From Flavobacteriales bacterium (GTDB lineage Bacteria > Bacteroidota > Bacteroidia > Flavobacteriales > Flavobacteriaceae): DNA of 35,400 bases. The notes under the pieces were generated by a model that was not told where the DNA came from, ran no database searches, and saw nothing but the letters and a program-made list of their open reading frames with translations. The DNA lies in NCBI GenBank assembly GCA_004321735.1, contig SGZB01000010.1, positions 1-35,400 on the forward strand, written 5' to 3'. Both the position numbers and the translations under genes were made by a program. Every line of letters starts with the position of its first letter. Positions within the stretch are counted from its first letter, which is position 1. This document shows, piece by piece, positions 31,843 through 35,400 of the stretch.

Positions 31843-32619
31843 ATGATCAAAGAGATATCTATTGTTGGAACTGGAAATTTAGCTTACCATTTTGTTGAAA
31901 TGATATCAAGAGTTGATGGACTAAATATTAATGAAATAATAGGTCGGCAAGAAAAGATTCCGAAAGCTTTTAGAAAATTTGAATTAAACTATAGCTCAAA
32001 AATATCCAACACATTAAAAAGTGATTTATATCTGATCCTAGTTTCAGATGACTATATAAAAGACATTTGTTGTAATCTTAAAAATCTAAATGGTATAGTT
32101 TCACATTGTTCTGGTAGTATTGACATTGAAGTTTTGAAAGAATGTAACAACTATGGTGTGATATATCCATTACAAACATTCAGTATGAATTCAAAATTAG
32201 ATTACTCTAAAATCCCTTTTTTATTAGAAGCTTCGGACAAAGAGGTTAAAAATCAATTGAATGAATTTATATCAAAGATTTCAAAAAACATATCCTTTGA
32301 AAACTCAGAATCCAGATTTATTTATCATATTACAGGTGTAATTATAAATAATTTTACTAATCACCTAATTGTAAAAAGTCAACAAATTATTAAATCTAAT
32401 AATCTCAATTTCGAATTTCTACATCCACTTATTGAAGAAACGATTAAAAAAACTGAACTTATTTCTGCGCTAGAAGCTCAAACTGGACCTGCAAAAAGAA
32501 ATGACAAAATTACAATAGAAAAACATATTGATTATTTAAAAAAATATGACGTCGAAAAACTATATCGGGCAATTAGCGATTCAATAATTAATACTAATTT
32601 TGTGGAAGATGAGCTATAA
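31843..32619 (+). CDS. Rossmann-fold protein with DUF2520 domain
   Basis: The 258-residue protein opens with a nucleotide-binding glycine pattern IVGTGNLAYHF and has the two-domain layout of the Rossmann-like/DUF2520 family: a dinucleotide domain (about 1-125, ending near GVIYPLQTFS) and a helical C-terminal domain with NNFTNHLIVKSQQI and the ALEAQTGPAKRNDKITIEKH block. The fold resembles pyrroline-5-carboxylate reductase-type oxidoreductases, but the substrate is unknown. It overlaps the KdsC-like gene by 11 bases; this pairing is standard in Flavobacteriia. Confidence 0.88.
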   Translation: MIKEISIVGTGNLAYHFVEMISRVDGLNINEIIGRQEKIPKAFRKFELNYSSKISNTLKSDLYLILVSDDYIKDICCNLKNLNGIVSHCSGSIDIEVLKECNNYGVIYPLQTFSMNSKLDYSKIPFLLEASDKEVKNQLNEFISKISKNISFENSESRFIYHITGVIINNFTNHLIVKSQQIIKSNNLNFEFLHPLIEETIKKTELISALEAQTGPAKRNDKITIEKHIDYLKKYDVEKLYRAISDSIINTNFVEDEL

Positions 32620-33130
32620 ATTAAAATTAAAAAATATTAAAAATTTTATTTTTGATGTTGATGGAGTCTTTACTGATGGATCTATTCTAGTTGATTCACA
32701 GGGTGAGGAATACAGAACTTTTAATACAAAAGACGGCATTGCTGTTAAATTAGCTACAGACTTAAATTATAATATCTGTGTAATAAGTGGAGGAAATAAT
32801 GAAGGTGTTAGAAAAAGACTTGAGAGACTAGGTGTACGCAATGTACATCTAGGTGTGGGAAATAAAAAAGATGTTTACTTAAAATTTCTTTCTGATAATG
32901 ATTTAAAAAATGATGAGACTGTTTACATGGGAGATGATTTACCTGATGAAGAAATTCTTAAATTATGTGGTTTATCAACTTGTCCATATGATGCATGCCC
33001 AGAAATCAGAGAAATTGTTGATTATATAAGTGTTAAGAAGGGTGGAGATGGATGTGTAAGAGACATAATCGAACAAGTTTTAAGAATTCAAGAAAACTGG
33101 AAAATTCACCACGATTCAAAAAACATATGA
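32609..33130 (+). CDS. KdsC-like HAD phosphatase
   Basis: From the ATG at 32609 the protein has 173 residues. It carries the HAD motifs FDVDGVFTDG (nucleophile Asp16, acid Asp18), the Ser of VISGGNNEGVRKR, the lysine in GNKKDVYLKF and MGDDLPDEE. The end DYISVKKGGDGCVRDIIE is typical of KdsC, 3-deoxy-D-manno-octulosonate 8-phosphate phosphatase, which makes Kdo for lipopolysaccharide. The capless small form is correct for that family, though some lineage members act on other phosphates. A TTG at 32600 would add three residues but ATG is favoured. Its stop overlaps the start of the microprotein gene in an ATGA junction. Confidence 0.9.
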   Translation: MSYKLKLKNIKNFIFDVDGVFTDGSILVDSQGEEYRTFNTKDGIAVKLATDLNYNICVISGGNNEGVRKRLERLGVRNVHLGVGNKKDVYLKFLSDNDLKNDETVYMGDDLPDEEILKLCGLSTCPYDACPEIREIVDYISVKKGGDGCVRDIIEQVLRIQENWKIHHDSKNI

Positions 33131-33210
33131 TGTCTAATTGGAAAAAAGAATATTCTCTAGTTCTTATATTAAATTTTATATATCTGATTATTTTTACACT
33201 ACTGATGTAA
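33127..33210 (+). CDS. 27-residue single-pass membrane microprotein
   Basis: This gene is too short for ordinary gene calling. It starts at ATG 33127 (or 33130), overlapping the KdsC-like stop as ATGA, and ends with TAA at 33208-33210, one base before the symporter ATG at 33212. The peptide begins MMSNWKKEYS and then has a hydrophobic run from about residue 10 to 27, so a charged cytoplasmic start followed by one membrane helix is likely. The placement, with no room left on either side, argues that it is translated. A tiny peptide coupled to a transporter suggests an accessory subunit or a translational coupling device, as KdpF-like and YhdT-like peptides do for other transporters; that role is inference. 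Confidence 0.65.
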   Translation: MMSNWKKEYSLVLILNFIYLIIFTLLM

Positions 33211-33211
33211 T

Positions 33212-34870
33212 ATGGTAATTTTTGATTGGATTGTTCTAGCCCTAACAATTTTATTTATTGTTACATACGGTGTTTTAAAGACAAGTAAAAGTTCAAACAT
33301 AAAATCATTTTTAAAAGATAACAACAATACTAATTGGTTTACTATTGGAGTATCTGTCATGGCTACTCAGGCAAGTGCAATCACTTTCCTTTCAACCCCA
33401 GGTCAAGCATATAATGATGGTATGGGATTTCTACAATTTTATCTAGGATTACCAATTGCAATGATAATAATATGTGCCTTTTTTGTTCCATTATATCACA
33501 AGCTTAAAGTTTACACAGCTTATGAGTTTTTAGAAAAAAGGTTTGATCAAAAAACAAGAACATTGGGTGCAGTTTTATTTCTTATACAAAGAGGATTAGC
33601 CGCTGGTATTACAATTTTTGCTCCTTCAATTATTCTTTCCTCAGTACTCAATATAGATTTAAAACTTTTAAATATAATCATTGGTTTACTTGTTATCATT
33701 TATACAGTTTCAGGTGGGACAAGAGCTGTTAATACTACTCAGAAACAACAAATGTTCATAATTTTCACTGGACTTTTTGTAGTATTTTTTATAATTCAAA
33801 ACAACTTACCTGATCAGCTAACTTTCAATAAGTTTTTAGATTATGCACGTGAATCTGAAAAAATGAATATACTTGATTTTTCAATTGATTATGAAAATCG
33901 ATACACGTTTTGGAGTGGAATAACCGGAGGACTTTTCTTAGCACTTTCATACTTTGGGACTGACCAAAGTCAAGTTCAAAGATATTTAGGTGGTAAATCT
34001 GTAAAAGAAATTAGACTAGGGTTAATATTTAATGGAATTTTTAAAATCCCGATGCAGTTTTTTATTTTATTAATTGGTGTATCAGTATTTATTTTTTATG
34101 AATTCAATACAAGTCCAATTAATTTTAATCCACAGGCAACTCAATACCTTGAGCAAAACCTAAGAGATAATTTTACGGAGATAAATTCCGAATTAGAATC
34201 AATAAATTATAAAAAAAAGAAATTTCATGAAGAATTTTTTAATGAATCTGATATTGATTTTGAAAAACTAAAAATTATTCAATCAGAGGAGAAAATATTA
34301 AGAACTCGAGTTAAAGAACTTATAGATACTAATACTGATATTGAATCAAATGATAAAGACTATGTTTTTTTACATTTCATCTTAAATTATCTGCCATCTG
34401 GGATAATTGGATTACTAATAGCAGTGATTATTTCAGCTGCAATGTCCTCAACTGCCTCAGAACTTAATGCCCTGGCTGCAACAACCACAATTGATATTTA
34501 CAAGAGAAATACAACAAAGAAAAAAAGTGAAAAACACTTTCTGAAAATGTCAAAAATATTCACTGTAATGTGGGGATTAATAGCAATATGTTTTGCAAGC
34601 TTTGGAACTTTATTTGAGAATTTAATACAACTTGTAAATATTATTGGCTCTATTTTTTATGGAACAATCTTAGGAATTTTTCTTGTTGCATTTTTCTTTA
34701 AAAGAATTACTTCAAATTCAGTTTTTTATGCAGCCTGTTGTTCACAATTATTAATTTTCATCATATATTTTAACATTGATATTAGCTACCTATGGCTTAA
34801 TTTTATAGGAGCTGTATTTACTGTAATCCTTTCAGTATTCTTAGAAAATACAGGCTTATTCAGAAGATAA
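33212..34870 (+). CDS. Sodium:solute symporter (SSS family)
   Basis: The 552-residue protein has about 13-14 membrane helices and the SSS-family pattern: FTIGVSVMATQASAITFLSTPGQAY near the first helices, YEFLEKRF, VSGGTRAVNTTQKQQ, YFGTDQSQVQRYL and the sodium-site region ISAAMSSTASELNALAATTT. It should couple sodium entry to uptake of an organic solute; the substrate is not evident. Residues about 300-385 form a long hydrophilic, charged, probably coiled-coil insert between two helices, which I recall from other Flavobacteriia members. The gene starts 1 base after the microprotein. Its end overlaps the convergent DUF2911 gene by 15 bases. Confidence 0.92.
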   Translation: MVIFDWIVLALTILFIVTYGVLKTSKSSNIKSFLKDNNNTNWFTIGVSVMATQASAITFLSTPGQAYNDGMGFLQFYLGLPIAMIIICAFFVPLYHKLKVYTAYEFLEKRFDQKTRTLGAVLFLIQRGLAAGITIFAPSIILSSVLNIDLKLLNIIIGLLVIIYTVSGGTRAVNTTQKQQMFIIFTGLFVVFFIIQNNLPDQLTFNKFLDYARESEKMNILDFSIDYENRYTFWSGITGGLFLALSYFGTDQSQVQRYLGGKSVKEIRLGLIFNGIFKIPMQFFILLIGVSVFIFYEFNTSPINFNPQATQYLEQNLRDNFTEINSELESINYKKKKFHEEFFNESDIDFEKLKIIQSEEKILRTRVKELIDTNTDIESNDKDYVFLHFILNYLPSGIIGLLIAVIISAAMSSTASELNALAATTTIDIYKRNTTKKKSEKHFLKMSKIFTVMWGLIAICFASFGTLFENLIQLVNIIGSIFYGTILGIFLVAFFFKRITSNSVFYAACCSQLLIFIIYFNIDISYLWLNFIGAVFTVILSVFLENTGLFRR

Positions 34871-35400
34871 TAATCTATTATTTAACCTTTTTAAAGTATT
34901 AATTCCATCAGGACCCCCTGTTTTCATTGCATCATCTAATCCTAATTTTGCATATTCTTTAGCTTTTTTTAATTTACCGGCTTTTTCATAAATCAAAGAC
35001 TTATATCTGTATTGCCAATATCTATGTTTTTTATTATTAGGATATGCTAAATTAATCCACTTCATTGCTTGTTTAATATTTATGTTTTCCTCTAAATAGT
35101 ATACTGCTGCAGCACTCAAATCACTAACGGTAGGGTTATTTGCCATTACGTTTTCAATTTGAACTTTCATTTTTTCTTTAGTCATAACATCTAAATCAAA
35201 GGAAATTAATTGATTATCCCACAAAAAATCTAATGTCCCCCCTTTGTTCGAAATATTATTGATCGAAATAGTAAATGTTTCTACTGTAAATGGAAGTGAT
35301 ACAAAACTTGAAAAAACATTAAGTAAAACCTTGCTTTCATCTATTTCTTTCAATGCACCCCAATTTCTATTTTTTTCATAAAAAATAAGATTTAGCCCTT
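34856..35400 (-). CDS. DUF2911-domain protein with TPR-like tail (partial)
   Basis: The frame stays open on the minus strand to the right edge, so the N-terminus is outside the window. The visible 181 or so residues begin GLNLIFYEKNRNWGALKEID, which matches the DUF2911 pattern of a W-G pair after an N-x-N-W region. The next block VETFTISINNISNKGGTLDFLWDNQ is also DUF2911-like. The C-terminal 80 residues read as helical repeats (AAAVYYLEENINIKQAMKWINLAY, then KHRYWQYRYKSLIYEKAG), like TPR units. DUF2911 proteins in this phylum are usually secreted and of unknown function; the likely signal peptide lies off the edge. The TTG at 35353 is only an internal codon. Confidence 0.85.
   Translation of the reverse strand, partial: GLNLIFYEKNRNWGALKEIDESKVLLNVFSSFVSLPFTVETFTISINNISNKGGTLDFLWDNQLISFDLDVMTKEKMKVQIENVMANNPTVSDLSAAAVYYLEENINIKQAMKWINLAYPNNKKHRYWQYRYKSLIYEKAGKLKKAKEYAKLGLDDAMKTGGPDGINTLKRLNNRLLSSE

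Follow-up and report, generated by a model that had tools for sequence, protein, structure and literature searches.

A candidate single-helix accessory subunit encoded beside an SSS symporter across the Bacteroidota

The large SSS family of transporters has human members that serve as drug targets, and the role of the one-helix helper of one of these, SGLT2, is still debated. Small membrane proteins are also encoded with bacterial SSS transporters: YjcH (DUF485) accompanies the acetate permease ActP, and DUF4212 is a two-helix partner of another SSS type, the VC_2705 type. KdpF of KdpFABC is a very short subunit with one helix, its gene lying right next to those of the transporter. SGLT2 itself is an SSS-fold transporter with its N-terminus outside, and MAP17 (PDZK1IP1) is required for its robust activity or stability and packs on its helix TM13 (PMC10803289). 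The locus described below encodes a protein that would assist a sodium symporter of the SSS fold as a single-pass accessory component, as MAP17 does with human SGLT2 and SGLT1.

The gene and its neighbours

The window, by which we mean the whole 35,400-nucleotide stretch of DNA analysed here, carries on its plus strand a microprotein gene (33130..33210) whose product of 26 aa (MSNWKKEYSLVLILNFIYLIIFTLLM) has one transmembrane helix. The gene is recognized from the ORF list, from relatives, from coding constraint and from a phylum-wide family, and its reality as a gene is close to certain. It is flanked by two further plus-strand genes, one for a KdsC-like HAD phosphatase (32612..33130) and one for a 552-aa SSS-family sodium/solute symporter (33212..34870), its constant genomic partner. 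These neighbours had been named in a first-pass annotation made from the sequence, and both assignments stand: the phosphatase scores 127 bits with TIGR01670 (KdsC-phosphatase; cut-off 107) and the symporter 237 bits with TIGR00813 (cut-off 184), the latter also matching Pfam SSF (6.6e-41) and agreeing with the fold match of a homologue's model.

Direct reading of the sequence confirmed the 27-residue ORF reported between these two genes, together with its ATGA overlap with the upstream stop and its end one base before the symporter ATG. The KdsC-like gene terminates in ATA-TGA (33128-33130), and an alternative start codon, ATG 33127, shares an ATGA (33127..33130, plus strand) with that stop. 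The peptide MMSNWKKEYSLVLILNFIYLIIFTLLM has 27 aa when read from ATG 33127 and 26 aa from ATG 33130, the upstream in-frame ATG adding a single Met. We favour the start at 33130, because the start conserved in same-genus relatives (M-x-x-W) aligns to it. The microprotein stop is TAA (33208-33210), followed by T 33211 and then the symporter ATG at 33212.

The upstream neighbour is exchanged between lineages, being the KdsC-like gene in the window's genus, a gene for an 858-aa PIG-L protein in one other family member examined and other genes elsewhere; the microprotein-symporter pair persists through these changes. Within the symporter (33212-34870), a long variable charged insertion at about residues 305-365 diverges strongly among orthologues. 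On its 3' side lies a convergent gene on the minus strand (34856-35398) with a DUF2911 match (5.6e-8), which continues past the window end.

Distribution of the pair

An SSS match was present in 57 of 60 relatives, and in the best-matching relatives with upstream DNA a short ORF whose product has W, Y, N, Y and F at constant intervals terminates a few bases 5' of the symporter start. The homologues carry, on a single helix, the pattern W-x(3)-Y-x(6)-[NL]-x(2)-Y-x(3)-F, and are found upstream of the same SSS orthologue across Bacteroidota. The conserved ORF that the first-pass annotation had suggested looking for in relatives was found upstream of the symporter in all 80 further named genomes (Flavobacterium, Maribacter, Zobellia, Robiginitalea, Cellulophaga and others), in 74 of 74 symporter-bearing genomes of the window's family, and, at E<1e-3, at 68 of 80 symporter loci outside that family.

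The family figure comes from an order sample of 395 genomes, 76 of them from the window's family, which was searched with a microprotein profile and for the symporter. The profile gave one strong match in each of 74 of the 76 family genomes; the symporter was found in the same 74, adjacent to the microprotein, and the remaining two lack both genes. By coordinates, 78 matches in this sample adjoin the symporter, five of them being weaker matches from another family, and every strong match with listed coordinates does so. In one genome without a coordinate in the adjacency listing (G388), the pair is adjacent at locus L176. Unlinked matches were weak (E ~0.001 or worse) and, with one exception, occurred in genomes with no listed symporter coordinate. 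There is one microprotein copy per genome despite several SSS paralogues per genome.

In other families, and in other orders and classes as well, the same kind of ORF precedes the symporter orthologue; it often overlaps the symporter start by 4 bases, and the members there have a longer N-terminus with PPxFxSW and end in FYxFTxxFS. Members of the family of microproteins are 25-52 aa long, with a median of 37. Six of the 80 outside-family loci (L131, L157, L161, L162, L164, L166) hold a one-helix ORF in the right position that is barely similar or not similar to the microprotein, and a further six with the symporter (L066, L105, L107, L123, L147, L158) show no evident candidate ORF. Since 12 of these 80 loci are without a significant match, six of them without an evident candidate, the microprotein is not indispensable everywhere. 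At L105 and L107 the symporter stands without it; in L310, which lies upstream of L107, the genes nearby include a biotin-carboxylase-like ORF.

A phylum sample of 395 genomes, searched with a 69-member profile, gave a match to the microprotein in 126 genomes and to the symporter in 143. Both genes occur in 125 genomes, the microprotein only in 1, the symporter only in 18 and neither in 251 (Fisher p ~1e-81, with shared ancestry ignored), and 120 of the 125 pairs are adjacent by coordinates. The microprotein is essentially confined to genomes with this symporter orthologue and normally lies directly 5' of it. In the sole microprotein-only genome a short stretch similar to the symporter C-terminus follows the microprotein (L316; G452:C19:31000-33700), an apparent remnant corresponding to residues 492-532. 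One other genome, G687, has microprotein and symporter at two places (C1:21415-23087 and 3845670-3847468), with an internal TAG in one symporter copy; a contig-end overlap or a duplication is possible. A plasmid collection gave no match to the peptide or to the symporter.

Five phylum genomes depart from the usual arrangement. Four genomes of one genus (G451, G462, G477, G518; loci L311-L314) have the microprotein gene ~15 kb away from the symporter, and in G672 the distance is ~108 kb. The four one-genus copies keep the full sequence, with a pN/pS of 0.13 among them, and of 0.20-0.27 against a copy of that genus which adjoins its symporter. Because these four unlinked copies are still under purifying selection, the microprotein can, as judged from sequence, act in trans.

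Coding constraint, helix pattern and structure models

The first-pass annotation had also proposed that substitutions be checked for coding constraint, and such constraint is evident. Counted pairwise, 15 distinct same-genus sequences gave pS 0.68, pN 0.21 and a pN/pS of 0.31, against a mean of 0.94 and a minimum of 0.70 in 300 trials of simulated neutral evolution; in the simulation each sequence is set against the window, and on that basis the observed ratio is 0.34. The length of the ORF at 33127-33210, 27 aa, would be unremarkable in AT-rich DNA, and it is conservation that places it beyond chance. Both the gap to the symporter and the frame relative to it vary, so the microprotein is not a frameshifted symporter N-terminus.

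Homologue alignment and helical-wheel analysis define a conserved helix region, WKKEYSLVLILNFIYLIIFTLLM (33139..33207, plus strand). The residues W, Y, N, Y and F are invariant in the first 19 homologues and lie within ~40 degrees of one helical-wheel direction. In 69 diverse members the strongest period of conservation is 100 degrees (permutation p = 2e-4); a sharp signal there is expected when a helix packs on a partner with one of its faces. The N-terminal flank is more positive than the C-terminal flank in 46 of the 69 members, and the reverse holds in 4. As more positive charge precedes the helix, an N-in/C-out orientation is predicted.

The model of a homologous symporter has a complete SSS fold, with SiaT (5nva) as the nearest structure (Z = 40.5, rmsd = 2.2, 464 aligned) and the match spanning model residues 52-614. 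Fold searches matched the symporter part only, residues 49-616 being spanned by at least a fifth of the rows. Since the SSS core looks complete in this model without it, the microprotein would be an added helix, not a missing piece. An AlphaFold2 model of the natural read-through fusion of one relative gave a single microprotein helix at 11-36, with pLDDT ~87 and a disordered linker. For the window's own read-through pair, joined by a one-residue linker, this confident helix did not recur, pLDDT in the microprotein helix being ~50. The models fit a helix, and neither yielded a docking site. Among the loci inspected, none was noticed in which microprotein and symporter are fused in frame into a single gene. 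Covariation between the two proteins, calculated as mutual information with APC from 157 paired sequences (effective number 70), gave its top signals on variable loops and termini.

Possible roles of the microprotein

Taken together, these data make it quite probable that the genuine single-pass membrane microprotein encoded at 33130-33210 is an accessory subunit dedicated to the SSS symporter downstream. That it serves the adjacent symporter is very likely, and it is likely to be a structural subunit, not a regulator. Two alternatives had been offered in the first-pass annotation, a symporter-associated peptide and a coupling element that sets symporter translation; the former is favoured, and the constrained distant copies speak against the latter. 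Its likeliest role is to stabilise or assemble the symporter, given the analogy with known single-helix transporter helpers, and regulation is the main alternative. We envisage that the microprotein inserts N-in/C-out, as its flank charges suggest, and that its W/Y/N/Y/F face would pack against a membrane-facing helix of the symporter. With the N-terminus of SGLT2 outside as a guide, the end of the microprotein and the start of the symporter would meet at the outer face of the membrane. Tight gene spacing could aid co-translational and roughly stoichiometric assembly, and the symporter may depend on the microprotein to fold, to remain stable or to reach full activity, as SGLT2 depends on MAP17.

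A conditional regulator would instead bind the symporter and act as an inhibitor, adjust its specificity or govern its proteolytic turnover. The models for such a role are MgtS, MgtR and AcrZ, which regulate other transporters, and the evidence for association with the symporter would fit it just as it fits a subunit. Several small-protein regulators or modulators of bacterial transporters have been reviewed (PMC10710835). The two genes nevertheless share an apparent operon with tight spacing, an arrangement better suited to a stoichiometric subunit than to a separately controlled regulator, and we regard a regulatory role as unlikely. It is far harder to reconcile the data with a co-transcribed membrane microprotein whose function is unrelated to the symporter: co-occurrence with one symporter orthologue is near-perfect, a single copy is kept despite several SSS paralogues, and the pair is retained through changes of neighbour. 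We consider an unrelated function very improbable.

Equally improbable is a cis-acting leader or translational-coupling ORF whose sole job is symporter translation and whose peptide is inert. The overlaps or very short gaps to both neighbours, and the 4-base overlap with the symporter start that is common in other families, are what such an ORF would display. Constraint, however, acts at the amino-acid level and follows a helical face, gaps and frames relative to the symporter are variable, and protein-level constraint persists in copies ~15 kb from the symporter, which disfavours the coupling element proposed earlier and leaves a coupling-only role largely refuted. A chance ORF without a product, for which 27 codons in AT-rich DNA might speak, is refuted by the conservation results, and its probability is negligible.

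Returning to the accessory subunit, the microprotein family, unnamed until now, is best read as supplying a one-helix accessory protein to an SSS transporter, much as MAP17 does for SGLT2 or KdpF for its own complex; transporter subunits of this kind are known. The window peptide matches no Pfam or NCBIfam family at E<=1, the 69 members give scattered, insignificant matches to family profiles, and a PDB search returned nothing convincing for the microprotein. At 25-52 aa the gene is short enough to escape annotation length cut-offs, and no family model was found here. A literature search found no paper on the pair; an anonymous listing in the supplementary tables of a small-protein survey, which lay outside that search, is possible. 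We lean towards seeing here an unnamed family, spread through the phylum, whose single-helix members are obligate subunits of one SSS clade; it would be an independently arisen bacterial counterpart of SGLT-MAP17. If so, one-helix helpers would be a recurrent feature of SSS transporters. Species that are easily grown carry the conserved pair, and in them genetic and structural work could address why an SSS transporter should require an extra helix.

The likeness to MAP17 is not one of sequence, as a PF15807 match came from only one of the 69 members, at E 0.099, and none is significant. MAP17 packs on TM13 of SGLT2, and the symporter here seems to stop short of that helix, the C-terminus of the model aligning at about SGLT2 residue 550. 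The comparison with KdpF made in the first-pass annotation is apt as an analogy but does not extend to kinship: KdpF belongs with a different transporter superfamily, and no sequence match to the microprotein was found. Identity with DUF485/YjcH was considered and rejected, as the window peptide has no match at E<=1 and PF04341 was not found in its own genome. DUF485 is an 88-position family of longer proteins, and was found in 2 of 61 phylum genomes.

DUF4212 proteins resemble the microprotein in being small membrane proteins with a W/K-rich stretch before the first helix. This similar start prompted a comparison with PF13937, and homology was rejected (hhalign probability 0.5%, E 0.11); PF13937 is also absent among the matches listed for the 69 members, which cover 25 of the 40 families matched. 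Six aligned DUF4212 sequences are 84-90 aa long and contain a GFWFAQQGSIY block, which microprotein members lack. The partners differ as well, the window SSS protein reaching only 65 bits with TIGR03648 (VC_2705), for which the cut-off is 320.75. A DUF4212 protein is encoded elsewhere in the window's own genome (G000:C23:18591-18815, L182), and this organism may have two unrelated kinds of SSS helper.
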